This document shows, piece after piece, positions 298 to 16,929 of a DNA stretch of 64,000 nt. Made by a program: the position numbers and the translations under genes. The DNA is from Caulobacterales bacterium. Its GTDB lineage: Bacteria; Pseudomonadota; Alphaproteobacteria; Caulobacterales; Caulobacteraceae. The stretch covers positions 1 through 64,000 of the forward strand of contig CANJID010000009.1 in NCBI GenBank assembly GCA_947474395.1, read 5' to 3'. The notes under the pieces are model-generated. The model saw only the letters and a program-made list of their open reading frames with translations. It was not told the DNA's origin and made no database searches. Within the stretch, counting starts at the first letter, position 1. Each line of letters begins with the position of its first letter.

Positions 298-1299
298 TTG
301 CTGGAGGCTGTGGTGGAAGCTGTACGAAAGCCCTCTGCCAAATTCGATTCCATCGGCGTCGCGCAGCGGGTGCTTCGGGTCGAATCCCAGGCCCTGAACG
401 CCCTGGCCGATTCCCTCGGCGAGACCTTCGCGGCGGCGGTCGAGCTGCTGTTCCCGACCAAGGGCCGCATCGTGGTCACCGGCGTCGGCAAGAGCGGCCA
501 CGTGGCGCGCAAGATCGCCGCGACCTTCGCCTCCACCGGCGCCCCCGCCTTCTTCATGCACGCCGGCGAGGCCAGCCACGGCGATCTCGGCATGGTCGGT
601 CCCCAGGACGTGATCCTGGCGCTGTCCAAGTCGGGCGAGGCGCGGGAGATGGGCGACGTGATCGCCTACGCCAAGCGCTTCTCCATTCCCCTCCTGGCGA
701 TCACCGCCGCGCCGGACAGCTCGCTGGGCCAGGCGGCGGTGGTGACGCTTGTCCTGCCGGACGCCCCCGAGGCGGCGGCCGAGGTGAGCGCGCCCACCAC
801 CTCGACCACCCTGCAGATGGCCCTCGGCGACGCCCTGGCGGTCGCCCTCTTGGAACGGCGCGGTTTCTCGGCCACCCACTTCCGCGTCTTCCATCCCGGC
901 GGCAAGCTGGGGGCTCAATTGCTGACGGTCGCGGACCTGATGCACGTCGGCGACGAGCTGCCGCTGGTGTCCCCGGCCATGCCCATGACGGAGGCCCTGC
1001 TGGTGATGACCGGCAAGCGGTTCGGCTGCGTCGGGGTGGTGGAGGACGATGGAGTCCTGGCGGGGATCGTCACCGACGGCGACCTGCGCCGCCACATGAA
1101 CGGCCTGACCGGCCGGACCGCGGGCCAGGTGATGACGCCCTCGCCCAAGACCATCGCCCCCGACGGCCTGGCCGCCGAGGCGCTGCGGATGATGACCGAG
1201 CGGGCGCCGCCCTCGACGGTGCTGTTCGCGGTGGATGAGAAGAACCGCGCCGTGGGTATCCTGAACATCCACGACCTGCTGCGCGCCGGGGTGGTCTGA
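298..1299 (+). CDS. KpsF/GutQ-type arabinose-5-phosphate isomerase (SIS plus two CBS domains)
   Basis: The 333-residue product interconverts D-ribulose-5-phosphate and D-arabinose-5-phosphate, the first step toward Kdo for lipopolysaccharide or capsule; it is cytoplasmic. An N-terminal SIS domain (about residues 35-185) carries the GVGKSGHVARK sugar-phosphate loop, the SKSGEA loop and the HPGGKLG segment. Two CBS repeats follow (about 205-330, with GIVTDGDLRRH). Length and order are typical of KdsD/KpsF. The start is TTG at 298; in-frame GTG codons at 310 and 313 are alternatives. The usual alphaproteobacterial partners (lptC, lptA) do not follow. It neighbours a surface-polysaccharide set instead, so either a housekeeping KdsD or a capsule-dedicated KpsF role is possible. 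It converges with the TPR gene. Confidence 0.9.
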   Translation: MLEAVVEAVRKPSAKFDSIGVAQRVLRVESQALNALADSLGETFAAAVELLFPTKGRIVVTGVGKSGHVARKIAATFASTGAPAFFMHAGEASHGDLGMVGPQDVILALSKSGEAREMGDVIAYAKRFSIPLLAITAAPDSSLGQAAVVTLVLPDAPEAAAEVSAPTTSTTLQMALGDALAVALLERRGFSATHFRVFHPGGKLGAQLLTVADLMHVGDELPLVSPAMPMTEALLVMTGKRFGCVGVVEDDGVLAGIVTDGDLRRHMNGLTGRTAGQVMTPSPKTIAPDGLAAEALRMMTERAPPSTVLFAVDEKNRAVGILNIHDLLRAGVV

Positions 1300-1338: not shown

Positions 1339-2073
1339 TCAGGCGAACAGGCTCCGGATCCACAGGGCCATGATGGCCAGCAGGACCGATTCCAGGATGA
1401 TCATCCAGGGGCGGTGACGCAGCCGTATCCGCCTGGGCCGGATCGGACGGTTGGCCCAGCGGCTGCGCCTCGGGCTGGAGCGCGCCACCGGCATGTCGCC
1501 GTCGGCGAATTCGGACTCGCGGCCCGCGCCCTCCTCGTCGCTCCGCCGGTCCTCGACCTCCTCCTCGTCGTCGAACTGGCCGTCGCGCTCCGGCGCGGCC
1601 AGGGAGAGCAGTTCGAGCTGGAGGATCTGGGCGTCGGTATGCTCGGGGTCGAGCTCCAGGCATCGCTTCAGGGCGGCGTGGGTGTCGGCCTCGCGCCCGA
1701 GGGCGCGCATCTCCACCGCCATGCGGTAGTAATGGTCGGCGTTGTCGGGCTCGAGGGTGATGGCCGCATCGATCTGCCTCACCGCTTCGGGATGACGCCC
1801 GAGCCGCGAGAGCACCTCGGCGAACTTGGCGTGCAGCCTGGCGTCATCGGTGAGGATCGCCACGGCCCGTTCGAACTGGACGGCGGCGGCGTCGAGCCGG
1901 TTCAGCCCAACCAGGACGCTCGCATAGCCCGTCCGGTCCGCGCCGGCGGCCGCCGAGTCCGGCTGCGGCTCGGCCTCGATGATCCTGGTGTAGATGTCCG
2001 CGGCGGACACGAAGTCCCGAGCTTTGTAGGCCCGCTTCGCCTCCTTACGCAGGGCTTCCATATTTTCCGCCAT
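1339..2073 (-). CDS. Tail-anchored TPR protein
   Basis: The 244-residue protein has an N-terminal and central array of tetratricopeptide-like helices (about residues 5-145, for example AKRAYKARDFVSAADIYTRI and HPEAVRQIDAAITLEPDNADHYYR). A strongly acidic linker follows (DDEEEVEDR around 168-178), then a basic stretch. The C-terminus has one hydrophobic segment (about 222-241), which suggests a tail anchor with the TPRs in the cytoplasm. TPR domains mediate protein-protein contacts and no enzymatic motif is visible. The ATG at 2073 is the first start; a second ATG lies four codons in. The position next to polysaccharide genes suggests a scaffold role, but that is inference. Confidence 0.75.
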   Translation of the reverse strand: MAENMEALRKEAKRAYKARDFVSAADIYTRIIEAEPQPDSAAAGADRTGYASVLVGLNRLDAAAVQFERAVAILTDDARLHAKFAEVLSRLGRHPEAVRQIDAAITLEPDNADHYYRMAVEMRALGREADTHAALKRCLELDPEHTDAQILQLELLSLAAPERDGQFDDEEEVEDRRSDEEGAGRESEFADGDMPVARSSPRRSRWANRPIRPRRIRLRHRPWMIILESVLLAIMALWIRSLFA

Positions 2074-2436: not shown

Positions 2437-3321
2437 CTAGCGCCCCGCCTGGGCGAAGCCCTGGGCCTTGACCGCCTGGGCCCGGGCCTTCTTGCGGGCG
2501 TAGACCTCGGCGTGTTTCACGAAGCCCGCGGCCCGGTCGATCCGCTCGTACCTCTGGGCGGCGGCCTCGTCGAAGTCGGCCTCGTGGGGCAGTTCCTCGA
2601 TCTCGGCGATCAGCGACGGGCGGAAATAGCCCAGCTCGACCTCCCGGTGGATGTCGCGCCAGCTGAGGGCGCCGGTCTCCAGCATCAGCAGCACCTCCTT
2701 GATCCAGAGGCGTCCCAAGCGATTGTCGCTCGACACCCAGGGCTGGGTGTTCATGTCGGTGTAATGGAGCAGGCGGGTCTCGAGGTCGTAGTGCTCCAGG
2801 CTGTTCCAGGCGTAGGGAACGCCGTAGCGGACCTCGGCCTCCGGCAGGATGCACAGCTCGTACATCAGCTGCTCGTAGCTGTAGCGTCCGTCGAGGCCGC
2901 CGACGATCTCGCGCACGTCCCATCGGGCGCGGGCGCAGTCGATCAGCATGACCGAGCACTGCTTCACGCGCGTGGGCGGCGCGCCCCTCTTCAGCTCGCC
3001 GACGTGCTCGGGGACTCCTTCCTGGATGACCACGCTGGCCCCGTCGAAGGGGACCGACCACAGCTCGGCGATGTCCCGGAACACCAGCATGTCGGCGTCC
3101 AGGTAAAGCGCCTTGCCGGTGTGGTTCATCAGTTCGGGGATGGCGAAGCGGGCGAAGGAAAAGTTGGTCCGCGAGCCCTGGGCCAGGTCGGCGGGCTCGG
3201 GCAGGTCGAGGTCGATCAGCGGGCTGACCGTCACCCGGCCGAAGGTGTGGCGGCGGATGGAGTGCTCCAGGACGGCGACGGCCAGCAACTGGGACCGGTC
3301 CGCCCCGACGAAGATGTCCAT
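2437..3321 (-). CDS. GT8-like (glycogenin/LgtC-type) glycosyltransferase
   Basis: The product of about 294 residues starts MDIFVGADRSQ and has a nucleotide-sugar-transferase GT-A fold: N-terminal strand, the R-N-F-S-F-ARF helix and a metal-binding DxD motif in YLDADMLVFRDI (about residues 74-85). Later family elements include MLIDCARA and the YAWNSLEHY/HYTDMNTQPW region, comparable to the GT8 HxxGxxKPW motif. It probably transfers a sugar from an NDP-sugar onto a surface glycan. A GTG at 3333 overlaps the stop of the upstream gene by four bases (GTGA) and is an alternative start, so the two genes are translationally coupled. The C-terminal 40 residues are basic and alanine-rich. Confidence 0.8.
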   Translation of the reverse strand: MDIFVGADRSQLLAVAVLEHSIRRHTFGRVTVSPLIDLDLPEPADLAQGSRTNFSFARFAIPELMNHTGKALYLDADMLVFRDIAELWSVPFDGASVVIQEGVPEHVGELKRGAPPTRVKQCSVMLIDCARARWDVREIVGGLDGRYSYEQLMYELCILPEAEVRYGVPYAWNSLEHYDLETRLLHYTDMNTQPWVSSDNRLGRLWIKEVLLMLETGALSWRDIHREVELGYFRPSLIAEIEELPHEADFDEAAAQRYERIDRAAGFVKHAEVYARKKARAQAVKAQGFAQAGR

Positions 3322-3329
3322 CGCCTCAG

Positions 3330-4991
3330 TCACGCCTGGTTTCGGTCGGCCAGGGCCGCGGCCCTGGAGCGCCGGGCCTCGCCGGCTGCGGTCAGGATGT
3401 AGTCCGCTGCGTCCCGGGCCGGATGGCCGCCGTCCGCGGTGCGGGTGAGGAAGGTGGCCCGCCGCGCGGCGTCGTCCACCGAGCCGGCCTCGGCGATGAA
3501 GGTGGACCAGTCCTCCAGCCGCTGCAGCAGCGGAAGGGGCGAATAGGCGGGCAGGTTCAGGCCGTAGGCGGCGACCGCCACCGGCTTGCCGGCCTGGACC
3601 GCGTCGAGGGCGACGGTCGATGGCGTGGTGATCACCGCGTCGGCCAGCTGCACCAGGGCGGTGGCCGTGAACGGCTCCCAGAAGCTGTCGGTGGGGTCGG
3701 CGACGATCAGGTTGGACGGCCACTGCGGGATCAGATGGCGGTTGCGGGCAGACCACAGGCCGGCGTGGTGCGGCTTGAGGATCACCGCCCGGGTCGGGTC
3801 GGCCAGGGCGAACTCGGTGCAGTCGGTCAGGAACCGCAGGCGCCAGGCTTCGTCATAGCGGCGCCAGTGCAGGTTCTCGAACACCGTCACCACAGAGTCG
3901 AAGGTGGCGAAGGCCCCGCTGACGCCGGACAGGTCCGGGTGGGGCGGCGGCGAGCGGCCCACATGCACCAGCCGGGGCCGCAGCGCGTTGGGGACCGAGG
4001 GCGGGACGTGATCGGGCCCGAACCAGACGAACAGGTGATCGGCGGCGAGGGTCGCGTCGTCCTCACCGGGGATGTCGTGCAGGCCCACGTTCTCGACCCC
4101 ATGCTGGAGCACGAACGTCGGGATTCCCGCCTTGCGGGCCCGGTTGAACAGGACATGGCTGCAGGCGTGGGCGGGCAAGCTGCTCTCGGCGGCGGCGAGG
4201 ACCGCGTCGATCCCCTGCAGGGACGGGCCCGCCCCGTTGGCGACCGCCGACCGCTCGAAGGTGTCGAAGGTGACGCCCCGCGCGGCCAGCTCGGCGGCGA
4301 GGCGGGGACTGCGGTGGCGCACCCAGTTGGTCACGGCGACCTGGATCTTCACCCGCGAGCGGTCCTGCAGGATGTCCAGCACCGGCAGGATCGGGTCGAG
4401 GTCCTGGATCAGGTCGACGAAGAGCAGAATCCGCAGCGGCTCGCGGCCGGGATTGCGCAGGGAGCGCCGGGCCAGGACGTAGGCCAGGGTCTCTTGCCAG
4501 TCGTTGGCCACCTGGGTGGGTTCGAAGGTCCCCGGGTCGATCGAGGCCGGCGGGGCGGCGTTGCCGCCCGAGCGTAGGGCGGCCACTCGCCGCCGCGCCT
4601 GGCTGTAGGATTCAGGGCCGAAGAAGACGCAGCGCTCGGCCTCGGACAGGGCCCATTGCAGAATGTCAGGGGACCAGAGGCAGCTGCGAGCCTTCACCCC
4701 GGCCTGGGCCAGCCAGGCGCGCACGAACCGCGGCGCCACCACCAGGCGGCCCTCCGCGTCGTCGGACCAGGCCTCCGCCAGCCGTCGGACTTCCTCCGGC
4801 TCGACGTTGTCGCCAGGCTCGCAGAACCACAGCTCGCGCACACCGGTGAAGTCGGGGCGATCATGCTCGAAAGGGGGCAGGCTAAACTGCAGCGCCGCCC
4901 CGGCCGCCGGCTGAGCGAGGCGCCTCCGGCGCCTGCGCTTCGTGCCCGGAAATTCGCAATAACGCCCGTAGGCTTGGCCGGTATCTTGCAA
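3330..4991 (-). CDS. GT-B glycosyltransferase / CDP-glycerol glycerophosphotransferase-like protein
   Basis: This protein of about 550 residues has a long N-terminal region (1-190) without clear homology to my eye and a C-terminal GT-B-like half. That half contains VLQHGVENVGLHD (about 302), a GRSPPPHPD segment, VILKPHHAGLW and the donor-site-like VITTPSTVALDAVQAGKPVAV (about 475-495). The H(G), KPH and T-P-S-T...AL..GKP pattern resembles the TagF/CDP-glycerol glycerophosphotransferase superfamily and related capsule transferases. A TagD gene lies nearby on the other strand, so glycerophosphate transfer is a reasonable hypothesis; ordinary sugar transfer is the alternative. The start is a TTG at 4991; no better ATG or GTG is visible, so the first 30-40 residues (RRRRRR stretch) may not be translated. 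Confidence 0.65.
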   Translation of the reverse strand: MQDTGQAYGRYCEFPGTKRRRRRRLAQPAAGAALQFSLPPFEHDRPDFTGVRELWFCEPGDNVEPEEVRRLAEAWSDDAEGRLVVAPRFVRAWLAQAGVKARSCLWSPDILQWALSEAERCVFFGPESYSQARRRVAALRSGGNAAPPASIDPGTFEPTQVANDWQETLAYVLARRSLRNPGREPLRILLFVDLIQDLDPILPVLDILQDRSRVKIQVAVTNWVRHRSPRLAAELAARGVTFDTFERSAVANGAGPSLQGIDAVLAAAESSLPAHACSHVLFNRARKAGIPTFVLQHGVENVGLHDIPGEDDATLAADHLFVWFGPDHVPPSVPNALRPRLVHVGRSPPPHPDLSGVSGAFATFDSVVTVFENLHWRRYDEAWRLRFLTDCTEFALADPTRAVILKPHHAGLWSARNRHLIPQWPSNLIVADPTDSFWEPFTATALVQLADAVITTPSTVALDAVQAGKPVAVAAYGLNLPAYSPLPLLQRLEDWSTFIAEAGSVDDAARRATFLTRTADGGHPARDAADYILTAAGEARRSRAAALADRNQA

Positions 4992-5098
4992 TGGCCGAGA
5001 AGTCGTCCAACGTCTGAAAACCGGCTCAACCGCGCCGTGCTGCGGCGTCGTCCACCGCCTCGGTCCGGCCCTGGTTTCAGTTCCTCTGGAGTTCGCCT
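4992..5098. promoter_or_regulatory. Divergent intergenic region between two polysaccharide operons
   Basis: This 107-base gap separates the minus-strand GT pair from the plus-strand sulfotransferase-TagD pair and must hold both promoters. A GGAG sequence at about 5086-5089 precedes the TTG start at 5099 at a normal distance. I could not recognise confident -35/-10 elements. Confidence 0.4.
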
Positions 5099-6301
5099 TT
5101 GAAGACCATCTTCATCCACGTCGGCTACGGCAAGACCGGCACCTCGGCCATCCAGGGCGCGCTTGCGGACAATTCCGCGAAGCTGGCCGCGCAGGGCGTG
5201 ATCTACGCCAATCGCAGCCTGGCCCATAAGAGCCTGGGCCCCAACGCCTTCGCCTCCGGGGATGAGTTCAAGGTCGCCCTGCGCAAGAAGGACATGCGCG
5301 AGACCTTCGTCGTGCGGGCGGCCCAGATCTTCACCGACCTGATCGACCGGGACGACGTGCAGAAGGTGATCTGGAGCCACGAGACGCTCCTGGGTCAGAC
5401 CAAGATCATCGGCGCCGTGGCGCGGCGGCTCGCGGGCGTCGCCGACGTCAAGATCATCATCTATATGCGCAACCACATCGACCTGATCGTCTCCGGCTAC
5501 CAGCAGTGGGGAATCAAGCACAAGGTCGGCAAGGGCCGCCTGCCGACGCTGGAGGAGTACATCCGCGACGCCGAGCGCAAGCTCAACTTCGACAAGATGG
5601 CCGACGAATGGGCCGCCGAGGTGGGGGACGAGAACCTCATCGTCCGCTCGGCCGACGCGGCCGGCGACGTGGTGCCGGATTTCGCCCGGGTCTGCGGCAT
5701 CGACATCGAGCTGGAGCGCCCGAGCGACCGCCGCTACGTGACGCCCAGCCCTTCGATCATGTCCCTGTTCAAGGTCTACCACGACCAGTTCGACGAGCCG
5801 AAGGCCTCGCGGCCGGTGATGGAGCTGCTTCGCAGGGCCGGCGTCCTGGATCGGGACATCCATCCGGTCGACCCCTGGCCGATCGAGATGAGCCCCGAGA
5901 TGGCGTCCCGCCTGGCCGAACAGTTCGCGCCCCAGAACGAGGTGCTGGAGAACCGCTACGGGGTGGTGCTGGCCGAGAAGCCCAAGCCGCTGAAGCCCCG
6001 GCCCCAGCTCCGGCCCGAGGAAACCAACACCGATCTCATCGCCATACTGATGATGCTGGTGATGCACCTTAATGACCGCATCACCGTGCTGGAGGCCGGC
6101 CGCAAGGTCGCGCGCAAGCAGAAGAAGGCGATGTCCGTGGTCGATCCTGATGAGGCGGACGAGGACGGCGACGAGGGCGGCGTGATCGTCGCGGCGCCCC
6201 CCCCGGCTCCCGCCCCGGCCAAGCGGCGCGACCGCAAGGCGGCCAGGACCGAAAAGCGGGTGGGGGCCAAGGCGTCCGCCGTCGCAGAAGGGAGCGAATG
6301 A
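5099..6301 (+). CDS. Sulfotransferase-like P-loop protein with charged C-terminal tail
   Basis: The 400-residue protein begins MKTIFIHVGYGKTGTSAIQ. The GKTGTS motif matches the 5'-phosphosulfate loop of PAPS-dependent sulfotransferases, and IIYMRNHIDLIVSGYQQWG (about residues 120-138) corresponds to the 3'-phosphate loop, with Arg and a Ser-Gly-Tyr. Such enzymes sulfate carbohydrates or other cell-surface acceptors. The last about 80 residues are unusual: a coiled segment (LNDRITVLEAGRKVARKQKK), an acidic run and a Pro/Ala/Lys-rich end. The start is TTG at 5099 with GGAG upstream. Its stop overlaps the next start (ATGA), so it is coupled to the cytidylyltransferase. A glycan substrate is inferred from context. 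Confidence 0.7.
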   Translation: MKTIFIHVGYGKTGTSAIQGALADNSAKLAAQGVIYANRSLAHKSLGPNAFASGDEFKVALRKKDMRETFVVRAAQIFTDLIDRDDVQKVIWSHETLLGQTKIIGAVARRLAGVADVKIIIYMRNHIDLIVSGYQQWGIKHKVGKGRLPTLEEYIRDAERKLNFDKMADEWAAEVGDENLIVRSADAAGDVVPDFARVCGIDIELERPSDRRYVTPSPSIMSLFKVYHDQFDEPKASRPVMELLRRAGVLDRDIHPVDPWPIEMSPEMASRLAEQFAPQNEVLENRYGVVLAEKPKPLKPRPQLRPEETNTDLIAILMMLVMHLNDRITVLEAGRKVARKQKKAMSVVDPDEADEDGDEGGVIVAAPPPAPAPAKRRDRKAARTEKRVGAKASAVAEGSE

Positions 6302-6732
6302 TCATGAGCGGCAAGACGCCCCGGTGCGTGATCACCTTCGGGACCTACGACCTGTTCCACATCGGCCACCTGAGAATCCTGGAGCGGGCCGCCGCCCTCG
6401 GCAACCGGCTCGTCGTCGGCGTATCGACCGACGCCCTGAACTATTCCAAGAAGAGCAAATACCCGGTTTTCCCCGAGGCGGACCGGGCCGCGATCGTCGG
6501 CGCCCTCAAGGTGGTCGACGAGGTTTTCTTGGAGGAAAGCCTTGAGCTGAAGGGCGAGTACATTAAGAAATACAAGGCCGACCTGCTCGTTATGGGCGAG
6601 GACTGGGCCGGCAAGTTCGACACGTATCGGGAGCTGTGCGACGTCCACTACTTCCCCCGGACCCCCGGGATATCCACCACCGAGATCAAGGAAGTCCTCA
6701 GCCAGGCCGCCGGCGGCGGTTCCGGCGCCTAG
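6298..6732 (+). CDS. Glycerol-3-phosphate cytidylyltransferase-like (TagD family)
   Basis: The 144-residue single-domain nucleotidyltransferase has the two signature motifs of the cytidylyltransferase superfamily: GTYDLFHIGH (about residues 15-24, the HxGH active site) and RTPGISTTEIK (about 121-131, the ISTT loop). Size and motifs match TagD/TarD, which make CDP-glycerol from CTP and sn-glycerol-3-phosphate. Related enzymes use ethanolamine- or other polyol-phosphates, so the substrate is not certain. It overlaps the upstream gene by four bases. The GT-B gene nearby and a GpsA-like gene downstream would supply the remaining steps of a glycerophosphate-transfer pathway. It is cytoplasmic. Confidence 0.85.
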   Translation: MIMSGKTPRCVITFGTYDLFHIGHLRILERAAALGNRLVVGVSTDALNYSKKSKYPVFPEADRAAIVGALKVVDEVFLEESLELKGEYIKKYKADLLVMGEDWAGKFDTYRELCDVHYFPRTPGISTTEIKEVLSQAAGGGSGA

Positions 6733-6836
6733 AGGAAATCGCCTCCCCGCCCCAATGCGCGATTTTGTCGGCGGACTGTCATGCTTTCGTAGCGTCCTTC
6801 AGAAACGCTCAAGAATAACGATGGATTTTCCGTAAG

Positions 6837-8273
6837 ATGGCTTCCTCTCTGCTCCCGGCCGGCCGCAAGCTGGTGACCGCGACCCTCCCCGGGCTGCTGC
6901 ACTTCGGGGTGGAGCCCATCCGGCTGTCGCCGATGTTCCTGACCGACAAGGTCCGGCTCTACATCCCCGACCGCGAAATCCTGAACCTCGAGAAGGTGAC
7001 TATCGTCGGGCCCGGCGCGGATCGCCTCGCCCGTGCGACCTGCGTCCTGTCCTCGACCCACAAGAGCTCGGCGGCTCCCGAGGCCTTGCTCGACGGCAAG
7101 GCCATCCACACCGAGCGCGAGGCCTATCCCTACTGGGAGCTGACCTTCGACGCGCCGCAGGAGGTGCAGGAGATCGAGATCGGCAACCGCCTCGGCATCT
7201 GGGGCGGACGCAGCCACGGCCTCTGCGTCGACCTTTTCGCGCCCTCCAACAACGTCTGGCGTTTCGACAACGCCAACCCCGACGTCCTGCACCTCCGGCT
7301 CGGAGACTTCATCGCCCGGGTGCGTGACCTGGCGCATGGCCTCGCCGGCCTGCCGGAGAAGCTGCGCATCACCCAGGCGCCCAAACGGACCGAGGTGCTG
7401 CGCACCGCCGGCGCCCTGATCGACCTCGCCCAGCAGATCATCGGCGGGGGCGCCGCCGTCGCGGACCATGCCCGGGGCGTGCGCGCCAAGGTCGTCGCCG
7501 CGGTGGTCGCGGCGGGCACCGGGGTCAGCGGCCCGGCCGCGGCCGACATCATCCGCCTCTCGGCGCGGGTGCTCGATTTCCTGCTGGAGCGCTCCGACCG
7601 TCCGCGCGCGGCCGCTTTCACGGAGGCCGAGACCAACGCGGTCGGGATCGTCTTCGCCGCCCGCTTCATCGCCAAGGGCCGGGTGGAGCTGGGCCTGGTG
7701 CGCGAGAACGAGATATTCCTGGGGACCACCGAGGCCACCCGCGCCGTCGAGACCCTGGTCAACGACCTCTACAAGTCGACCGGCGCCGACCCCCTGGTCC
7801 TGCCGATCATGTTCCGCAGCCACGGCATGAGCGGCGCGGAGCTGCGGCTCAACGCGCCCAAGTTCGTGGCCTCGATGAAGGAGGTGGCCGAGATGGTCGC
7901 CGAGAACACGAAACGCTACGCCACGGATAGCCGGACGTTTGTCGAGGGCGACGCTACGTCGACGCCCTTGCCGAAGGTTGATCTGATGATCGTGCGTGAC
8001 CTCATGCTCCACATCCGCCTGGAGAACTCGCTGGCCGTGCTGCGCAATTTCGTGGCGTCGGGAACGCCGCTTTTGCTGGCGTCCTCCTACCCGGTGCCGA
8101 TGAACAAGAACATCGAGGGCGTGGGCCAGTACGATTCGCGTCCCATTAATCTGCGGCTGGAGCCCTTTTCATTGCCCGAGCCGGTGGAAAAGCTACGGGA
8201 CTGGGTTCCAGGTTTCACGAAACGACACCTGGGTCTCTGGCGACGCGAAGACGTGGCGGCGGCGATCGCCTAA
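6837..8273 (+). CDS. Composite protein: discoidin-like N-terminal domain and methyltransferase-like C-terminus
   Basis: The 478-residue protein has no signal peptide that I can see. Residues about 30-145 look like an F5/8-type C (discoidin) beta-sandwich: a LLDGKAIHTE segment, PYWELTFDAP, then EIEIGNRLGIWGGRSHGLCV. A long alanine-rich helical middle follows (about 160-300). The C-terminal about 110 residues resemble the second half of a class I SAM methyltransferase (DLMIVRDLMLHI, then ASSYP, RPINLRLEPFSLP and LGLWRREDV). The glycine-rich SAM-binding motif I expected before this half is not visible, so activity is doubtful. It lies 104 bases downstream of the TagD gene, in a surface-glycan cluster. 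The function is not known. Confidence 0.6.
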   Translation: MASSLLPAGRKLVTATLPGLLHFGVEPIRLSPMFLTDKVRLYIPDREILNLEKVTIVGPGADRLARATCVLSSTHKSSAAPEALLDGKAIHTEREAYPYWELTFDAPQEVQEIEIGNRLGIWGGRSHGLCVDLFAPSNNVWRFDNANPDVLHLRLGDFIARVRDLAHGLAGLPEKLRITQAPKRTEVLRTAGALIDLAQQIIGGGAAVADHARGVRAKVVAAVVAAGTGVSGPAAADIIRLSARVLDFLLERSDRPRAAAFTEAETNAVGIVFAARFIAKGRVELGLVRENEIFLGTTEATRAVETLVNDLYKSTGADPLVLPIMFRSHGMSGAELRLNAPKFVASMKEVAEMVAENTKRYATDSRTFVEGDATSTPLPKVDLMIVRDLMLHIRLENSLAVLRNFVASGTPLLLASSYPVPMNKNIEGVGQYDSRPINLRLEPFSLPEPVEKLRDWVPGFTKRHLGLWRREDVAAAIA

Positions 8274-8338
8274 TCGATTGGAAGATCACCGCCCCGGCGC
8301 TTCTTCTGGCACTATCCGGGTTCCCGGAGTCCCCGGGT

Positions 8339-8391
8339 CCGAAAAACTCACTGCGCTTTTGCCCTCGCTTTCAGCGCGGTGACTTTTTCGG
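8339..8391. terminator. Large imperfect hairpin, probable bidirectional terminator
   Basis: The arms 8339-8356 and 8374-8391 are complementary at 16 of 18 positions around a 17-base loop. The stem begins with CCGAAAAA and ends with TTTTTCGG, giving a T-run on either strand. It lies 66 bases after the stop of the discoidin-methyltransferase gene and ahead of the gpsA-like gene. A small perfect hairpin (CGTCGG-CAA-CCGACG) follows at 8405-8419. Confidence 0.6.
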
Positions 8392-8443
8392 CCAACTGGC
8401 GCCCCGTCGGCAACCGACGAGAGCGTCATGACCATGATGCGAA

Positions 8444-9430
8444 ATGGGGCGTGAGTTGCACGACTCTGGAAACCACATTGCGGTCCTTGGGGCCGGATCC
8501 TTCGGCACCGCGGTGGCGGCTACCCTGGCGCGTTCAGGCCACGCGGTGGACCTGTACTGCCGGACCGCCGAGCAGGCGGAGCTGATTCAGGACACCCGGG
8601 AGAATCGCCGCTACTTCCCGGGCCACAAGCTGCAGGCCCAGATCACCGCCACCAACGACCTCGACCGGGCGCTAGCGGCGAATGTCATCTTCCTCGCCTT
8701 TCCCGCCCGGATGATGGACGACTATGCGGGCAAGATCGCCGCCGGCGCTCCGTCGGACGCCATCGTCGTCAACCTGGTCAAGGGCCTGCACGAGGAAGCC
8801 TTCACCTTCGCGGCCCTGTTCGAGCGCGTGAAGCCCTCGGTGCGCTATGTCTCGCTGAAGGGCCCGACTTTCGCCCGGCCCCTGTTCCTCGGCGAATGGT
8901 CCGGCCTCACCTGCGGCACCAGCTCCGAGCCCGCCCGGGCCCTGGTCACCGACCTGTTCAAGGACGCGCCGATCGTCCTGGACTACAGCGCGTCGGCCGA
9001 AGCGGTCGACGCGGTGAGCGCGGCGAAGAACGTCTACGCCATCGTCCTGGGCCTCGCCGCTTCGGTGGGTCTGTCGGAGAACACCACCTATCTATTCGTC
9101 ACCCTGATCCTGAAAGAAATCTCCGTTATCGTCCGACGGTTGGGGTTCGATCCGGCGGTGCTGCTGAGCTTCGCCGGGGTCGGCGACACCCTGCTCACCG
9201 GCCTCTGCGACACCAGCAGGAACCGGACCCTGGGCGTGATGATGGGCCGGGGGATTCCGATCGACTCCTCGCGCTCCGACTTTCTGGCCGAGGGCGCCCG
9301 CGCCGTCTCGACCTTGCGCCGCCACCTGGAGGGGGCGGAGACCCCCCTTCTTGATGCCGTCCTTGCGATCCTCGAGCACCGGGCCGAGCCGATGAGCATT
9401 CTCAACGTGTTCGAGGCGCGCAACGCCTGA
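8444..9430 (+). CDS. Divergent glycerol-3-phosphate dehydrogenase (GpsA family)
   Basis: The 328-residue NAD(P)-binding protein has the Rossmann motif AVLGAGSFGTAVA (about residues 13-25), a LVKGLHEE segment, SLKGPTFARP, the AAKNVYAIVLG segment holding the catalytic lysine, the GVGDTLLTG loop and the SRNRTLG segment. This order is that of NAD(P)H-dependent sn-glycerol-3-phosphate dehydrogenase, which reduces dihydroxyacetone phosphate. Several positions differ from housekeeping GpsA (for example GPTFARP for GPSFA, AAKN for LKN). I infer a specialised paralogue feeding the nearby CDP-glycerol step. Another 2-hydroxy-acid or polyol-phosphate dehydrogenase activity is possible. The ATG at 8444 is the likely start. 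Confidence 0.8.
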   Translation: MGRELHDSGNHIAVLGAGSFGTAVAATLARSGHAVDLYCRTAEQAELIQDTRENRRYFPGHKLQAQITATNDLDRALAANVIFLAFPARMMDDYAGKIAAGAPSDAIVVNLVKGLHEEAFTFAALFERVKPSVRYVSLKGPTFARPLFLGEWSGLTCGTSSEPARALVTDLFKDAPIVLDYSASAEAVDAVSAAKNVYAIVLGLAASVGLSENTTYLFVTLILKEISVIVRRLGFDPAVLLSFAGVGDTLLTGLCDTSRNRTLGVMMGRGIPIDSSRSDFLAEGARAVSTLRRHLEGAETPLLDAVLAILEHRAEPMSILNVFEARNA

Positions 9431-9781: not shown

Positions 9782-11074
9782 ATTCGCGGCGATTCAATCC
9801 TCGCCGGCCGTCTTCGGACCGTCCTCGTCCGGATCGGCGTCGACGACATCCTCGTCATCGGCGTCATCGGCGGCACCCTCGGCGTCTTCGTCACCGGTGA
9901 TATCCAGCGCCCGGGCCGCTACGTCGGCACCCCCAACGACAGCGTGCTCTATTTCCTGGACCAGGGCGGAGGTATCGACCCGTCGCGGGGCAGCTTCCGC
10001 AACGTCGTCGTGCGCCGGGGCGGTCGGGACGTCGCCCGCTATGACCTTTATGATTTCATCCTGCGGGGCGCGATCGCGTCGTTCAAGTTCGAGGACGGCG
10101 ACGTCATCTTTGTCGCTCCCCGCGGCTCCCTGGTCGCGGCGGTGGGCGACGTACGCAACGCCTACGCCTTCGAGACGCCGGCCGGTTCCAACACGATTTC
10201 CGGCCGTGAGCTGACGGCCCTGGCGATCCCGTCGGCTTCGGCGACCAGCGCCAGCGTGGTCCAGGTGCGGAACGGCCTCGCCAACGCCAGCTATTTCACC
10301 GTGGCCGACCTCGCCGCGGCGAACATCATCGATGGCTCGACCGCGACCTTCCGGTCGGAGGTTTTCACCGAAACCATCAGCATCGGCGTCAACGGCGACA
10401 TCAAGGGCCCAACAGCCTTTGTCCTGCCTCGGGGGGCCAAGCTCAGCGACCTCCTTGCCAAGCTGCCGCTGGACGGCAGCGACGTAGTCCGCGAATACAT
10501 TCACATAGAGCGCCCGTCCGTGGCCGCGGCCCAGAAGGTCGCCCTCAACCAGGCTCTCGACAACCTCGAGCGGGCCGCCATCACCCAACCGGCCCTGGCC
10601 AGCGCGGGGGCGGCCGAGCGGGCCGCAAATATCGCTCAGGTCCAGGCCTATGTGGCCGCGGCGAGGGACGCGCAGCCCCAGGGCAAGGTGGCGGTCTACA
10701 CGGACGGCGAGTTCCATGACCTGCAACTGGAAGGCGGGGACGTGGTGGTCCTGCCCAGACGAACCGACGTGGTGCTGGTCAACGGCGAGGTGCTGTCGCC
10801 GGGCGCCTTCTCTCATGCGCCCAACCTGGCCGCCCGGGACTACGTGAACCGCGCCGGGGGCTTCGGCGAGAACGCTGACAAGAAGCGCGTGGTCATGCGG
10901 CGGGCCGACGGCACGGCGCTTGTCGCCGCGGCCAACACTCGCCCCAAGGCGGGGGACCAGATCGTGGTTGTCCCGTCCTTCGGCAACAAGACCCTCGCTT
11001 TGATGCGCGACCTCACCCAGATCGCCTTCCAGGTGGCCGCCACGGCGGCGGTTATCATCCGCGTCACGCCCTAG
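9782..11074 (+). pseudogene. KpsD/Wza-type SLBB polysaccharide export protein, 5' end missing
   Basis: The frame open from 9749 reads LGVFVTGDIQRPGRYVGTP followed by LYFLDQGGGIDPSRGSFRN. This is the SLBB-type beta-grasp signature of outer-membrane capsule export proteins (KpsD/Wza/OtnA group). Further SLBB-like segments occur downstream (TDVVLVNGEVLSPGAFSHAPN near the C-terminus) and the C-terminus has a hydrophobic helix. There is no signal peptide and no N-terminal Poly_export domain. The only usual start, GTG at 9944, lies inside the first SLBB repeat. Upstream, the frame runs directly into the hairpin after the previous gene. The 5' part therefore seems to have been lost; a 376-residue product from 9944 would lack export signals. 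I treat it as a decayed gene. Confidence 0.6.
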
Positions 11075-11305
11075 GGTGCGGTGGCGGGCCCCTGTGGTCC
11101 GCCTGCCCGCCTCGTGTTTTCGTGGCCCTGCGGCGTCTGGGCGCGATCGTGGTTAATCTTCTTTAACGGCTCTCCTCTACCCCAGGCTTAGGACCCTCGC
11201 GCGCGTCGCGGGGGGCCAAGGGTCCGCCGCGTCGAATGCGCGGCACGGTCGCCGGGCGCCGCTTCGAAGGAGGGGGCTCCCCGGCTGGTCTTGGGTCGAG
11301 CTCTG
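11075..11305. other. Intergenic region upstream of the type IV secretion operon
   Basis: These 231 bases must contain the promoter of the virB operon. A TTAA-six bases-TTAAC element lies at about 11154-11168, and GGAGGGGG at about 11269-11276 may be a distal ribosome-binding-like sequence. I see no RNA gene or repeat here. Confidence 0.35.
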
Positions 11306-11968
11306 ATGGCCAGTCATCCCGTTAGCGCGTCCGAGCGCCCGGCCCTTGCGGCGCGGGCGACGGCGACGGCGCTCGGCTTGCTGTTGGCCACGTTTTTCGT
11401 CCTCCCCGTCCCGGCCCGCGCCCAGGTGATCGAGATCGCTTCCGACGGCGCCGTGGCCGTCTATGACCGGCCCGCCGTCTTCACCGACGCCGGCGTCCAG
11501 CCCATCCCCCTCGCCCGCCCGACGCGCAGCCCCGCCCTGCCGGATTTCCGGCCCCGCGCCGCCCGCAAGTTCGAGGTGATGCAGGAGTTGTCCGCCGCGG
11601 CTTCCGCCTACGGCCTCGCGCCGGAGCTGGTGCACGCCGTCGCCTGGCGCGAATCCCGCTTCCGCCACGACGCGGTCTCCTCGGCGGGCGCGACGGGGGT
11701 GATGCAGCTTATGCCGGGCACCGCCCGCACCCTGGGGGTCGACCGCTTCGACCTGCGCCAGAACATCTACGGCGGCACGGCCTATCTGCGCCGCATGCTG
11801 GACGAGTTCGGCGGCGACGTGGGCCTGGCGCTCGCGGCCTACAACGCCGGCCCCGCGGCGGTGCGCCGCTACGGCGGGACCCCGCCCTACGCCGAAACTC
11901 AACAATACGTCGCCGCCATCATGGGCCGCCTCGCCGCGCCGGCGGCGGCCCTGACCCCGATTCGCTGA
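11306..11968 (+). CDS. virB1: VirB1-type lytic transglycosylase
   Basis: The 220-residue exported protein has a signal peptide (hydrophobic about 19-35, cleavage after PARA near residue 39) and a C-terminal SLT domain. The motif WRESRFRHDAVSSAGATGVMQLMP carries the catalytic Glu116, and AAYNAGPAAVRRYGG is the second signature. It would cut peptidoglycan locally to seat the secretion channel. ATG 11306 is preferred over the in-frame TTG at 11291. The stop is 11 bases before virB2, and it opens an operon in canonical virB order. Confidence 0.9.
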   Translation: MASHPVSASERPALAARATATALGLLLATFFVLPVPARAQVIEIASDGAVAVYDRPAVFTDAGVQPIPLARPTRSPALPDFRPRAARKFEVMQELSAAASAYGLAPELVHAVAWRESRFRHDAVSSAGATGVMQLMPGTARTLGVDRFDLRQNIYGGTAYLRRMLDEFGGDVGLALAAYNAGPAAVRRYGGTPPYAETQQYVAAIMGRLAAPAAALTPIR

Positions 11969-11979
11969 GGAGCACTCAC

Positions 11980-12315
11980 ATGAACCACAGGCGGAACGAG
12001 ACGCCCCCCAACCTGATCCCCGGCCTCGCGCTCGGCGGGACCGCGAGCCTCGCCGGCGGCATGGCCGCCCATGCGCAGAGCGTCGCCCTCGACCCGGCGG
12101 GCTCCAATGTCCTGCTCAACGGCGTCGGCTGGCTGCAGGGCACCATGCTCGGCAACGTCGCCACCGCCGTGGCGGTGATGGCGGTGGCCGGGGTCGGCTT
12201 CATGATGCTGACCGGCCGGATGAACTGGCGGTACGGCGCCACGGTCATCCTGGGCTGCTTCATCCTGTTCGGCGCGGCCACCATCGTCGGCGGCATCCGC
12301 TCCGTCGCCGGCTGA
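11980..12315 (+). CDS. virB2: VirB2-type pilin subunit (TrbC/VirB2 family)
   Basis: This 111-residue protein has a long signal sequence ending near MAAHAQ (about residue 33) and two hydrophobic segments (about 52-76 and 85-105) joined by a short basic loop (TGRMNWRYG). This is the typical architecture of the major T-pilus subunit. GAGGAG upstream of the ATG is a strong ribosome-binding site. It sits between the transglycosylase and VirB3. Confidence 0.88.
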   Translation: MNHRRNETPPNLIPGLALGGTASLAGGMAAHAQSVALDPAGSNVLLNGVGWLQGTMLGNVATAVAVMAVAGVGFMMLTGRMNWRYGATVILGCFILFGAATIVGGIRSVAG

Positions 12316-12318
12316 GCC

Positions 12319-12609
12319 ATGGCCGCGGCGCAGCTCGATCGCGATCCCGTCTTCGGGGCCCTCACCCGGCCCCAGATGTTCATGGGCGTGACCTACAGCT
12401 TCTTCGTGCTGAACGCCGTGGTCACGGCCGAGCTGTTCCTCATCACCAAGTCGCTCTGGGCCCTGATCGCGCCGCTCGCGATCCACTTCGTCGGCTACGT
12501 CGCCTGCCTGAAGGAGCCGAGGATCTTCGACCTCTGGCTCACCGCCTCGATCCGCTGTCCCCGCGTCAAGAACTACGCCCTGTGGGGCGCCAACTCCTAC
12601 TCGCCGTAA
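12319..12609 (+). CDS. virB3: VirB3-type inner-membrane protein
   Basis: The 96-residue protein starts three bases after the virB2 stop. The N-terminal DPVFGALTRPQMFMGV motif is typical of VirB3, followed by two adjacent transmembrane stretches (about 22-62). The C-terminus has the short conserved FDLWL...RVKNYALWG segment. VirB3 associates with the VirB4 ATPase and is needed for pilus assembly. Confidence 0.9.
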   Translation: MAAAQLDRDPVFGALTRPQMFMGVTYSFFVLNAVVTAELFLITKSLWALIAPLAIHFVGYVACLKEPRIFDLWLTASIRCPRVKNYALWGANSYSP

Positions 12610-12611
12610 GC

Positions 12612-15005
12612 ATGTTCAAACGGTCCGCCCAGTCTGAAGCCGAACGCGCCGCCCGCCGGGAACACCCTGCGGGCGCAAGGCTTCCGTATGGCCGGCACGT
12701 GGACGACGCCACCATCGAGACCCGCGACGGGATGCTGCTGCAGGTGATCCACCTGGCCGGCCTGCCCTTCGAGACCGCCGACACCGAGGAGCTGAACTAC
12801 CGCAAGGCCGTGCGCGACACGATGCTGCGCGGCGTGGCCTCCTCCCGCTTCGCCCTCTACCAGCACGTCGTCCGCCGCGAGGTCGCCCCCAAGGTGGACG
12901 GCGAGTTCGAGGACGATTTCAGCCGGGGGCTGGACGAGGCCTGGCGGGCCCGGCTGGGCGCCAAGAAGCTCTACGTAAACGACCTGTTCCTCACCCTGGT
13001 CCGCCGGCCCCTGCGCGGCAAGGCGGGGGCGGCCGAGGGGCTGATCGCCAAGCTGAAGGGCGCGGCCGGGGGCGCCGTCGAGGCCGAGATCGCGAGAGCC
13101 CAGGACCGCCGCGAGCTCGACGCCGCCCGCGAGGCCCTGCTGTCGGTCCTGGCGCCCTACGGTGCGCGCCTGCTGACCGTCTACGAAGCGGAGACCGGGC
13201 TCTCGTCCGAGCCCCTGGAGTTTCTCTCCGCCCTCTTCAACGGCGAGATGCGCCCGGTCCTGCTGCCCCAGGGCGACATCGGCCTGCACCTGCCCTACCG
13301 GCGGGTCACCTTCGGCCAGGACGCCATGGAGCTGGCGCGGGCGGGCAATCTGCCGCGGGCCTTCGCGGCCATGGTCTCGATCAAGGACTACCCGGCCCAG
13401 ACCACCGCCGGCGTCTTCGACGACCTGCTGCGCCTGCCCCACGAGCTGACGCTTACCCAGACCTTCGCCTTCGTCGACCGCCAGCCGACCCTGGACCGCA
13501 TGAACCTGGCGCTCCGCCGGATGAAGGCGGCGGACGACGACGGCATGAGCCTTCGCGCGGGCCTGGCCCAGGCCAAGGACGATGTGGCGTCGGGGCGCGC
13601 CGCCTTCGGCGAGCACCACCTGACCATCATGGTCAAGGCGGAGAGCGTCGCCGCCCTTAACGAGGCGGTGGGCGAGGTCCAGGCCGCCTTCACCGAAATG
13701 GGGGTGATCGCGGTCCGCGAGGACGTGAACCTGGAGGCCGCCTTCTGGGCCCAGTTCCCGGGGAACTTCAAGGACGTGGCCCGCCGGGCCCTGGTCTCCA
13801 CCGCCAATTTCGCGGGGCTGGCCTCGTGCCACAACTTCCCCGTGGGCCAGGCCGAAGGCAACCACTGGGGCCCTGCGGTCACCGTGCTGGAGACCACCTC
13901 GGCCGGGCCCTACTACTTCAACTTCCACAAGGGCGACCTGGGCAACTTCACCATCATCGGGCCCTCCGGCTCGGGCAAGACGGTGGTGCTGAACTTTCTC
14001 CTGGCCCAGGCGCGCAAGTTCGACCCGCAGATCGTGTTCTTCGACAAGGACCGGGGCGCGGAGATATTCCTGCGGGCCATCGGCGGGCGCTACGATTCCT
14101 TACGCCCCGGCCACCCCACCGGCTTCAACCCGCTGCTCTTGCCCGACGAGCCGGGCAATCGGCGCTTCCTGACCGAGTGGGTCACGCGCCTCGTCACCGT
14201 CCCCGGCGAGGTCCTGACGCCGGAGGACATCGCCCGCATCAAGGAGGCGGTGGACGCCAACTACGACCAGTCCCCAGCCTTCCGCCAGCTCTGCTACTTC
14301 CACGAACTGTTCCGCGGTGACCGGCGGCCCAACACCACCGACCTCGCCTCGCGCCTGGCGCCCTGGTGGGGCCAAGGCGAGCGGGCCTGGCTGTTCGACA
14401 ACGAGCGCGACGAGCTGGACCTCGACGCCGCCACCATCGGCTTCGACATGACCCGGATCCTCGACGATCCGAGCCTGCGCACCCCGGCCATGATGTACCT
14501 GTTCCACCGCGTGGAGCAGCGGCTCGACGGCAAGCCCACCATCATCGTCATCGACGAGGGCTGGAAGGCCCTCGACGACGATGTCTTCGTCCAGCGCATC
14601 AAGGACTGGGAAAAGACCATCCGTAAGCGCAACGGGGTGATCGGCTTCGCCACCCAGAGCGCCCAGGACGCCCTGGAGAGCAAAATCGCCTCCGCCATCA
14701 TCGAGCAGGCGGCGACGCAGATCTTCATGGCCAACCCGAAGGCGCAGACCGCCGACTACTGCGGCGGCTTCGGCCTGACGGCCCACGAGTTCGAACTGGT
14801 GCGCTCGTTGCCCGACACCTCGCGCTGCTTCCTGATCAAACACGGGACCGACAGCGTGGTGGCGCGGCTGAACCTGGCGGGCGAGCCCGACTTCCTCACC
14901 GTCCTGTCGGGCCGGGAGAAGACCGTCCGCATCCTCGACGACCTGCGCGAAGGCCTCGGCGACGATCCCGCCGGCTGGATGCCGCAACTCTTGGCGAGGG
15001 CGTGA
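12612..15005 (+). CDS. virB4: VirB4-type secretion ATPase
   Basis: The 797-residue ATPase has the CagE/TrbE/VirB domain in its N-terminal half and a RecA-like C-terminal domain. The Walker A motif GPSGSGKT is at residues 450-457, Walker B is in TIIVIDEGWKAL (about 645-655), and there is a downstream ATQSAQDAL motif. It energises pilus biogenesis and substrate transfer at the inner membrane. ATG 12612 is two bases after the virB3 stop; longer in-frame starts overlap virB3 and are unlikely. Length is normal for the family. Confidence 0.93.
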   Translation: MFKRSAQSEAERAARREHPAGARLPYGRHVDDATIETRDGMLLQVIHLAGLPFETADTEELNYRKAVRDTMLRGVASSRFALYQHVVRREVAPKVDGEFEDDFSRGLDEAWRARLGAKKLYVNDLFLTLVRRPLRGKAGAAEGLIAKLKGAAGGAVEAEIARAQDRRELDAAREALLSVLAPYGARLLTVYEAETGLSSEPLEFLSALFNGEMRPVLLPQGDIGLHLPYRRVTFGQDAMELARAGNLPRAFAAMVSIKDYPAQTTAGVFDDLLRLPHELTLTQTFAFVDRQPTLDRMNLALRRMKAADDDGMSLRAGLAQAKDDVASGRAAFGEHHLTIMVKAESVAALNEAVGEVQAAFTEMGVIAVREDVNLEAAFWAQFPGNFKDVARRALVSTANFAGLASCHNFPVGQAEGNHWGPAVTVLETTSAGPYYFNFHKGDLGNFTIIGPSGSGKTVVLNFLLAQARKFDPQIVFFDKDRGAEIFLRAIGGRYDSLRPGHPTGFNPLLLPDEPGNRRFLTEWVTRLVTVPGEVLTPEDIARIKEAVDANYDQSPAFRQLCYFHELFRGDRRPNTTDLASRLAPWWGQGERAWLFDNERDELDLDAATIGFDMTRILDDPSLRTPAMMYLFHRVEQRLDGKPTIIVIDEGWKALDDDVFVQRIKDWEKTIRKRNGVIGFATQSAQDALESKIASAIIEQAATQIFMANPKAQTADYCGGFGLTAHEFELVRSLPDTSRCFLIKHGTDSVVARLNLAGEPDFLTVLSGREKTVRILDDLREGLGDDPAGWMPQLLARA

Positions 15006-16198
15006 TGGCGCTGCTCTGTCCCGCCCCAAACCCCGACATCGGCCTGGTCCACGGCCTCCTCGGCACGGTCGACTGCAACATCTCCGGCCTGACGCGGGAG
15101 GGCTATGCGGCCCTTTCCGGCGCGGGCTCGCCGGTCATGGGCGTGCTGACCGCCCTCCTGACCATCTACGTCGCCTTCATCGGCTACCGGATGCTCCTGG
15201 GCCGCGCGCCCCTGCGCGTCGGGGACCTGACCGTCTCGGCCCTGAAGATCGGGGCGGTGGTGATGCTGGCGACCAACTGGGGGGCCTACCAGGCCGTCGC
15301 CTACGACACCCTCTTCAAGGGCCCCGAACAGCTCGCGGCCCTCCTCCTCAACACCGTCCAGCCGGAAGGATCGGCCTTCCGCGGCAATCCCTTCGACGGG
15401 CTTCAGTTGGCCTTCGACGAGATGCAGCGCTCGGCGGGAGCCTTCGCGGCGCGGGCCGGCCCCCAGGCTTCGGTCTTCCTGGGAGGAACGGGTTTCGGCG
15501 CCTTCGCCCTCAACGCCTCCAGCCTCCTGATGCTGATCTCCAGCCTCGGGGTCATCCTCGCCGCCAAGATCGTCCTCGCCCTGCTCTTGGGCCTGGCGCC
15601 CCTTTTCGCGGCCCTGCTGCTGTTCGACGCCACCCGCGGCGTGCTCGAAGGCTGGCTGAAGGCCGCCATCGCCCTGGCCGTCGCGCCCATGCTGGCGACG
15701 TTGCTCCTGGCGCTGCAACTGACCCTGTTGGAGCCGACCCTCGTGGAGCTCGCGCGGATGCGGGCCGAGCAGCGCTTCGACCTGTCGGCCCCCATGACCG
15801 TCTTCATCCTGATGCTGGTGTTCCAGGGGGTGTTGCTGGCCGCCGCCGTGGCTGGGGTGATGATCGCCAGCGGGGTCCGTATTGGCCGCAAGGCAGCCCC
15901 CGCCCCCGCCGAGGCCAATACCGCCGTCGCCGCCGCCGAGACGACATCCGCCGCCGCCATGGTCCCGCCGTCCCGCGCCGCCGCCATCGCCGCCGCCGCC
16001 TCGGCCATCGAGCGGCGGGAAAGCATCCGCCCCGTTGAAGCCGGCATGGGCGCCCATGACCGCCGCATCGCTGTCGGCGACCGCCGCGCGCCCGCGGCCC
16101 AGGCCGTGGCCGCCTATCGCCGCGAGCCCCTCGGGCAGAGCCACCGCCGCAGCGCCTCGCCCCGCCGCTCCGCCGCCGGCAATCGGAGAGACCAATGA
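15005..16198 (+). CDS. virB6: VirB6-type polytopic inner-membrane protein
   Basis: The product of about 397 residues has several hydrophobic segments: LTALLTIYVAFIGYRMLLG, the helix after GRAPLRVGDLTVSALKIGAV, SLLMLISSLGVILAAKIVLALLLGLAPLFAALLLF, and further helices to about residue 290. This fits the TrbL/VirB6 channel component. The C-terminal about 110 residues are Ala/Arg/Pro-rich and probably disordered. The ATG at 15005 overlaps the virB4 stop (TGATG). No gene lies between virB4 and virB6, so virB5 is absent here. Confidence 0.88.
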   Translation: MALLCPAPNPDIGLVHGLLGTVDCNISGLTREGYAALSGAGSPVMGVLTALLTIYVAFIGYRMLLGRAPLRVGDLTVSALKIGAVVMLATNWGAYQAVAYDTLFKGPEQLAALLLNTVQPEGSAFRGNPFDGLQLAFDEMQRSAGAFAARAGPQASVFLGGTGFGAFALNASSLLMLISSLGVILAAKIVLALLLGLAPLFAALLLFDATRGVLEGWLKAAIALAVAPMLATLLLALQLTLLEPTLVELARMRAEQRFDLSAPMTVFILMLVFQGVLLAAAVAGVMIASGVRIGRKAAPAPAEANTAVAAAETTSAAAMVPPSRAAAIAAAASAIERRESIRPVEAGMGAHDRRIAVGDRRAPAAQAVAAYRREPLGQSHRRSASPRRSAAGNRRDQ

Positions 16199-16929
16199 AC
16201 CAGGAGCTCCCCGGCGCAGAAGCCCGCCGCGCCTACTACGCGGAAGCCTCTACCTGGGCGGCGGACGTGCAGGGCTCCCTTCGCGCGTCCCGCAAGGTCG
16301 CCTGGATCATCGCCGGGGCGGCGGTGGTCGTGGCGGTGATGGAAGCCGGCGCCCTGATGCTGCTCATGCCTCTGAAGACGGTCGCGCCCTACGTCCTCGT
16401 GGTCGACCGCCAGACCGGCTACGTCCAGACCGCCGCTGGCCTGAACCCCGGCAAGCTCAGCCAGGACCAGGCCGTCACCCAGTCCTTCCTGGTGCAGTAC
16501 GTCATCGCCCGCGAGACCTTCGACGCCAGCGACCTCCAGGCCAATTACCGCAAGGTCCAGCTCTGGTCCGCCGGGGAAGCCAAGGACGGTTACCTGAAGG
16601 AGATGGCGGCGACCAATCCGCAGAGCCCGATCAAGCTCTATCCCGCCTCGACGGTGCTGCAGACCACGGTCAAGAGCGTGTCCCTTCTGACCCCCACCAC
16701 GGCCCTGGTCCGCTTCGACGCGGAACGGCACGACGCCGGCGGGTCGGCGGTGCAGCTGCGGCCCTACTCGGCGGTGGTCTCGTTCCGTTACACCGGCGCG
16801 CCCATGCGGATGGAGGACCGGTTCGTCAATCCGCTCGGCTTCCAGGTGACCCGCTACCGCCGCGACGCCGAGACCACGGGGGCGGTTCCCGCTCCTCCCA
16901 ACTCCAGTCCGCTGGGTCTGCGCCCATGA
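16195..16929 (+). CDS. virB8: VirB8-type assembly factor
   Basis: The 244-residue bitopic protein has a short cytoplasmic N-terminus, one transmembrane helix (about 36-58) and a periplasmic NTF2-like domain. That domain carries VDRQTGYVQTAAG, an IARETFD segment and the VSFRYTG strand, as in VirB8. It nucleates assembly of the core complex. It overlaps virB6 by four bases, so there is no room for a virB7 lipoprotein gene in its usual place. Confidence 0.9.
   Translation: MNQELPGAEARRAYYAEASTWAADVQGSLRASRKVAWIIAGAAVVVAVMEAGALMLLMPLKTVAPYVLVVDRQTGYVQTAAGLNPGKLSQDQAVTQSFLVQYVIARETFDASDLQANYRKVQLWSAGEAKDGYLKEMAATNPQSPIKLYPASTVLQTTVKSVSLLTPTTALVRFDAERHDAGGSAVQLRPYSAVVSFRYTGAPMRMEDRFVNPLGFQVTRYRRDAETTGAVPAPPNSSPLGLRP

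Follow-up and report, generated by a model that had tools for sequence, protein, structure and literature searches.

A TagD-type cytidylyltransferase in a possibly decayed capsule locus of a Caulobacterales bacterium

Introduction

Capsules based on cytidine diphosphate (CDP)-glycerol made by TagD have already been described in Gram-negative bacteria, and loci with TagF-like capsule polymerases are known in Actinobacillus pleuropneumoniae 3/7, Neisseria meningitidis and Bibersteinia trehalosi (PMC5974469, PMC8262930, PMC11666461). TagD also occurs in the secondary flagellar (flag-2) loci of Enterobacterales, where it was found in 235 strains and TagB in 65, a precedent for TagD without a local gene of the TagF family PF04464 (PMC6993521). 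Here we analyze a stretch of 64,000 nucleotides (hereafter the window) from a Caulobacterales bacterium (GCA_947474395.1, contig CANJID010000009.1), in which a TagD-type gene lies among surface-glycan genes. The window forms the beginning of a 73-kb contig in a 3.58-Mb draft genome of 103 contigs (99.65% complete). An earlier reading of the DNA alone (the original prediction) had proposed that positions 2437-9430 could encode a pathway making glycerol-3-phosphate, activating it and attaching glycerophosphate to a surface glycan that may also be sulfated, and knew of no described alphaproteobacterial pathway with exactly these genes; we likewise found no described alphaproteobacterial case of a TagD-based CDP-glycerol capsule in the literature searched.

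Like the loci with TagF-like capsule polymerases, the window has a TagD-type cytidylyltransferase in a capsule region, capsule-export type genes close by, and a combination of a GT-A glycosyltransferase (GT) with a TagF-superfamily protein. Unlike those loci, it has no PF04464 or LicD gene, its GT-B protein shows QHG-VE rather than WHG-TP, the GT8 and GT-B proteins are encoded by separate genes, and the export genes are truncated or missing. The flag-2 TagD is 60% identical to that of the window, but sits in a flagellar locus without capsule genes, whereas the window TagD sits in a capsule locus. Compared with the known Gram-negative CDP-glycerol capsule loci, the orphan TagD, the displaced gpsA and the GT8/QHG transferase pair are the unusual points.

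Gene content, motif states, the synteny of relatives and genome-wide absences (at the sensitivity used) are what we observed, and from these we infer every enzyme activity and the decay. The reading that we prefer, with evenly divided confidence, is that a capsule locus has been rearranged and has decayed in part, keeping a functional CDP-glycerol synthase, a CDP-glycerol user that escapes identification, and a GT8/GT-B pair of sugar transferases. The region would be a locus of the ATP-binding cassette (ABC) transporter type (group 2-like), in which TagD would convert cytidine triphosphate (CTP) and sn-glycerol-3-phosphate to CDP-glycerol. GpsA, replacing a lost housekeeping copy, would supply glycerol-3-phosphate to the whole cell, phospholipids included. 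The GT8 and QHG GT-B proteins would form a two-part glycan transferase that builds the capsule backbone, transferring, judging by the motif, sugar or sugar-1-phosphate. From the predicted pathway, this keeps TagD, the GpsA family and the surface-glycan setting, and gives up the role of the GT-B protein, a dedicated GpsA, the methyltransferase and intact export.

The TagD-Type Enzyme and Its Missing Partner

The predicted TagD-type enzyme is borne out with an intact active site, including the HxGH and RTxGISTT motifs. It shows 48% identity with Bacillus subtilis TagD (1coz) and matches PF01467 (E = 3e-23); because its TIGR01518 score (117 bits, E = 5e-34) is below the equivalog cut-off of 165.4 bits, we label it TagD-type and not a certified equivalog. 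Aligned with other TagD-type proteins (14 in total), it retains the catalytic and CTP-binding set of D11, H14, H17, D38, N41, K44, K46, R55, K77, D94, W95, R113, S118 and T119, among which H14, H17, K44, K46 and R113 have been tied to catalysis or phosphate contact by published mutagenesis or structures (summarized in PMC8262930). By its residues, it looks like a genuine CDP-glycerol-making enzyme. TagD is rare in the family (2 of 149 genomes) and in the class (7 of 385), the present genome being included in both counts.

The capsule literature links two transferase families to CDP-glycerol, PF04464 (TagF) and PF04991 (LicD) (PMC11666461). In a genome-wide profile search, which gave matches in control genomes, neither family was found in the present genome. 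TagD has a PF04464-type neighbor in six other alphaproteobacterial genomes and one Halioglobus plasmid: four neighbors score above the curated cut-off (L019, L020, L022 and, in Halioglobus, L099), two are slightly below it with PF04464 as the sole family matched (L021 and L009), and that in L023 was counted through its 77% identity to L022. The TagDs of these pairs are 45-64% identical to that of the window and keep the neighboring transferase, which the window is without. The TagD gene of an Octadecabacter plasmid precedes a LicD-family gene that scores marginally above the LicD cut-off, and no PF04464 or LicD neighbor is annotated in the TagD stretches of E. coli (which stops at the record end), Pantoea and Sulfitobacter. 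The CDP-glycerol transferase of the present genome is not identifiable: it may be lost, lie in an assembly gap or be of a novel type. If TagD is active without a known acceptor enzyme, this would imply either an unrecognized CDP-glycerol transferase or a recent loss.

Two of the compared loci deserve mention in their own right. In L009 (3279-13184; genome G126, same family), the TagD and PF04464-like pair has KdsD, KpsS-type and export genes close by, and this locus is a better place for studying an alphaproteobacterial CDP-glycerol capsule. On the Octadecabacter arcticus plasmid pOA238_118 (L103, 5099-8705), flagellin, TagD, LicD-family and Stf0-type sulfotransferase genes follow one another, an arrangement that points to flagella being modified with glycerol phosphate and sulfate.

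The Only GpsA Found in the Genome

The assignment to the GpsA family also holds, as PF01210 and PF07479 both match above cut-off and the protein retains its catalytic residues (Lys, Lys-Asn and Ser-Arg-Asn); the NCBIfam scores are below their cut-offs. The window GpsA is the sole PF07479 protein found in its genome and a divergent one (87.7 bits), while 39 of 40 other genomes searched have copies at 159-188 bits. In relatives, gpsA is flanked by tsaD on one side and by a yciI-like or Rieske-type gene on the other; in the present genome, tsaD (L093, contig C23, 1351-2451; 76% identical) runs straight into yciI with no space for gpsA. The simplest reading is that the window GpsA serves the whole cell. 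Being the only copy, with the housekeeping gene lost from between tsaD and yciI, it cannot be claimed as a dedicated pathway gene, and its nearness to TagD is no independent evidence for a dedicated CDP-glycerol pathway. A housekeeping gpsA might still lie unassembled elsewhere, though hardly at the ancestral place, where the junction of tsaD and yciI is intact. A plasmid search for close relatives of this GpsA returned only housekeeping-like genes of about 32% identity. It appears that the housekeeping gene was cleanly lost and that the divergent copy in a surface-glycan island ties membrane-lipid supply to an accessory locus.

A Probable GT8 and GT-B Transferase Pair

The GT8 transferase is as predicted (Table 1). 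The GT-B protein next to it has an uncertain start codon and poorly defined residues 1-180. No Pfam family matches it above cut-off (PF05159 at E = 0.06), and PF04464 is unmatched by it and by 18 relatives at E<=0.01, which goes against the proposed glycerophosphotransferase. Its motif is Q296-H297-G298-V299-E300, whereas glycerol-phosphate transferases have WHG-TP at the same place, and QHG does not vary among the 19 proteins aligned. GT-B enzymes that transfer hexose phosphate have been reported to carry QHG (PMC11666461, Extended Data Fig. 3). A proline in HG-T-P is a mark of glycerol-phosphate transfer (PMC10299916), and the window protein has E in its place.

TagD is absent from all 27 homologous loci (up to 10 kb per side, several shortened by contig ends), in which the homologs adjoin KpsM/KpsE-type genes (L025 and L028), KdsD (L037, L041, L044, L045 and L048) or GT8 (L024). 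GT8 homologs with 41-42% identity are either next to a GT-B homolog (L024) or fused with one (L029). The latter, on a Planctomycetota contig (8969-11245), is a single protein of 758 amino acids with the GT8 and QHG GT-B domains in one frame, which makes it a Rosetta-stone link between the two window proteins. Moreover, many Alphaproteobacteria bear a QHG GT-B with a C-terminal GT4-type domain (about 740 amino acids; L040, L041, L042, L043, L046, L049 and L050). Because of the QHG motif, the TagD-free loci and the adjacency and fusion with GT8 and GT4, we infer that the window GT8 and GT-B genes probably encode a pair of transferases for sugars or sugar phosphates. We know of no description of the QHG GT-B/GT4-type two-domain glycan transferase family. 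The GT8 and QHG GT-B module looks like an uncharacterized family of capsule polymerases, a counterpart to the TagF-like enzymes known from pathogens.

Residues 184-541 are predicted with confidence by AlphaFold to adopt a GT-B fold. Among the 50 structural matches listed are UDP-N-acetylglucosamine 2-epimerases, CapG and GT1-type enzymes (Z = 21-23); at 12-17% identity, the fold shared with the CapG/WecB-type and GT1 enzymes proves no function, and these structural neighbors are silent on donor choice. TagF (3L7I) is not among the 50 listed, which does not exclude TagF. Sequence searches of the PDB with the protein and its profile gave no meaningful matches.

Truncated and Missing Export Genes

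The surface-glycan setting stands, but an intact export system is not supported. The gene order in the homologous locus L025 is GT-B, KpsM, KpsT, KpsE, KpsD (598 amino acids) and GT2, with KpsT assigned by position and KpsM, KpsE, KpsD and GT2 read from sequence. The window KpsD aligns with residues 199-594 of the L025 protein and is without the first third (about 198 residues), and no in-frame start is present at that point. A search of the present genome with the L025 proteins as queries, in which pieces of TsaD and KpsD served as internal controls, did not find KpsM or KpsE, and there was no PF05159 (KpsC/KpsS) match above cut-off either; the genes found fall short of the set for a group 2 (ABC-dependent) capsule. 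A VirB-type cluster separates the window KpsD from GT2, whose homologs are adjacent in L025, and an export-protein gene is located on contig C8. With a shortened KpsD and no KpsM or KpsE found, export through the locus is probably broken.

Alternative Explanations

Several observations weigh against a partly decayed locus with a pair of sugar transferases. The absent transferase or transporter could sit in a gap, given the number of contigs and the position of the window at a contig end, and the search for KpsM and KpsE used single homologs from other genomes. Apart from KpsD and the methyltransferase-like gene, the genes of the cluster are undamaged and strongly biased in codon usage, which fits a working locus; third-position GC is coding-type (0.88-0.94) in all frames of the original prediction. 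In addition, hhalign connects an alignment of the GT-B family with one of the TagF family (93%, E = 3e-7), and the catalytic H297, the second histidine H408 within KPH(P/H), and S458-T459-x3-D463, an S-S/T-x3-D phosphate site, fall on the TagF-type positions given in PMC11666461. Broken export beside intact synthesis genes may reflect a recent loss, another export route, with the export-protein gene on contig C8 as a candidate, or an assembly fault.

The whole locus could instead be a non-functional relic, stripped of its transporter, polyol-phosphate transferase and export protein, with gpsA alone retained because it had become the sole copy. The truncated KpsD, the failure to find KpsM and KpsE, the lost S-adenosylmethionine (SAM) motif in the methyltransferase-like protein and the interposed secretion cluster are all consistent with such a relic. 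We nevertheless consider it unlikely, as the intact TagD, GT8, GT-B and sulfotransferase-like frames, with their coding-type third-position GC and conserved motifs, would be unexpected after long neutral decay, and the break may have arisen recently or in the assembly.

Somewhat harder to sustain is the proposal that the GT-B protein, despite QHG, is a CDP-glycerol transferase which, with TagD, GpsA and GT8, makes a glycerophosphate-containing capsule. Besides the match and residues described above, hhalign gave 86% with a single TagF-family member, only 5% with another single PF04464 protein, and near zero with two controls, KpsS and the unrelated GT-B protein NeuC. Because hhalign links it to TagF and not to KpsS or NeuC, we place the GT-B protein, by sequence profile, on the margin of the TagF superfamily as a probable remote relative, and it is the sole candidate from that superfamily close to TagD. 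However, its donor-pocket motif is identical in relatives without TagD, WHG-TP is absent, PF04464 is unmatched, and the listed structural matches are other enzymes, though these do not by themselves exclude TagF. The predicted kinship with TagF is thus upheld at a distance, while the glycerophosphotransferase role is opposed by QHG-VE, by loci free of TagD and by homologs that travel with GT8 and GT4 sugar transferases. Two other identities of the GT-B protein were rejected: KpsC/KpsS, with PF05159 below cut-off and no hhalign match to a KpsS, and a NeuC-like epimerase as ranked by fold, where hhalign against a NeuC gave nothing and only the fold is shared. We hold it very improbable that the QHG GT-B and GT8 represent a novel capsule polymerase that uses CDP-glycerol yet belongs to neither PF04464 nor LicD, producing a glycerophosphate-containing and possibly sulfated polymer in an alphaproteobacterium.

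There is also little to be said for TagD activating a different alcohol phosphate, such as one of the ethanolamine, choline, ribitol or phosphoglycerate type: the sub-cut-off TIGR01518 score, the changes from B. subtilis TagD (R63 to K and W74 to L) and the precedent of CpgD, a Caulobacter cytidylyltransferase with a different substrate (PMC12275187), point that way, but both lysines reported as CDP-glycerol phosphate binders are retained, and the two changes give no hint of another substrate because TagDs adjoining PF04464 genes share them. CpgD, the CDP-glycerate synthase of Caulobacter, has an unrelated fold and no homology to TagD (PMC12275187), which rules out its identity with the window protein.

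Other Genes of the Locus

All the open reading frames of the original prediction are present at their coordinates, and the locus reaches further, with KdsD upstream (its start only 298 bp from the contig end) and the truncated KpsD downstream (Table 1). Named relatives of the window genes include Caulobacteraceae and Brevundimonas.

Table 1. Features of the capsule region and its surroundings in the window
Feature	Coordinates	Strand	Evidence
KdsD/KpsF arabinose-5-phosphate isomerase (3-deoxy-D-manno-octulosonic acid (Kdo) synthesis), SIS and CBS domains	298..1299	+	TIGR00393, 277 bits (cut-off 203.7)
TPR-repeat protein, uncertain as locus member	1339..2073	-	PF13428
GT8 (GT-A fold) glycosyltransferase	2437..3345	-	PF01501, E = 9e-10
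QHG-motif GT-B transferase, probable remote TagF-superfamily relative, not PF04464	3330..4991	-	Profile, alignment and structure comparisons
Sulfotransferase-like protein, KTGTS P-loop-like motif	5099..6301	+	PF00685, E = 0.003, below cut-off
TagD-type CTP:glycerol-3-phosphate cytidylyltransferase	6298..6732	+	1coz, E = 3e-32; catalytic residues conserved
Protein with C-terminal methyltransferase-type half-domain, SAM motif I lost	6837..8273	+	Sequence comparison
Divergent GpsA-family glycerol-3-phosphate dehydrogenase	8444..9430	+	PF01210, E = 3e-30; PF07479, E = 5e-24
KpsD-type polysaccharide export protein, 5'-truncated, probable pseudogene	9872..11074	+	SLBB domains; 45% identity to L025 KpsD
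VirB-type IV secretion cluster, outside the pathway	11291..19908	+	SLT lytic transglycosylase, VirB4, VirB6, VirB8, VirB10 and VirB11 types
GT2 glycosyltransferase	19905..21491	-	PF00535; 50% identity to L025 gene 14059-16377
ManC-type nucleotidyltransferase fused to N-acylglucosamine 2-epimerase domain	22630..24840	-	

An active methyltransferase is not supported. The methyltransferase-like protein has no meaningful Pfam match, its resemblance to methyltransferases is confined to about residues 350-476 with the N-terminal 260-350 or so residues unmatched, and SAM motif I (DAPCGD in relatives) is replaced by LPIMFRSHG; its AlphaFold2 model has a predicted local distance difference test (pLDDT) score of 49. 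The sulfotransferase-like protein scores 17.6 bits with PF00685 (cut-off 22) and gave no meaningful matches in a PDB sequence search. Its gene overlaps that of TagD by 4 nucleotides, and similar proteins are encoded in L046 and L048.

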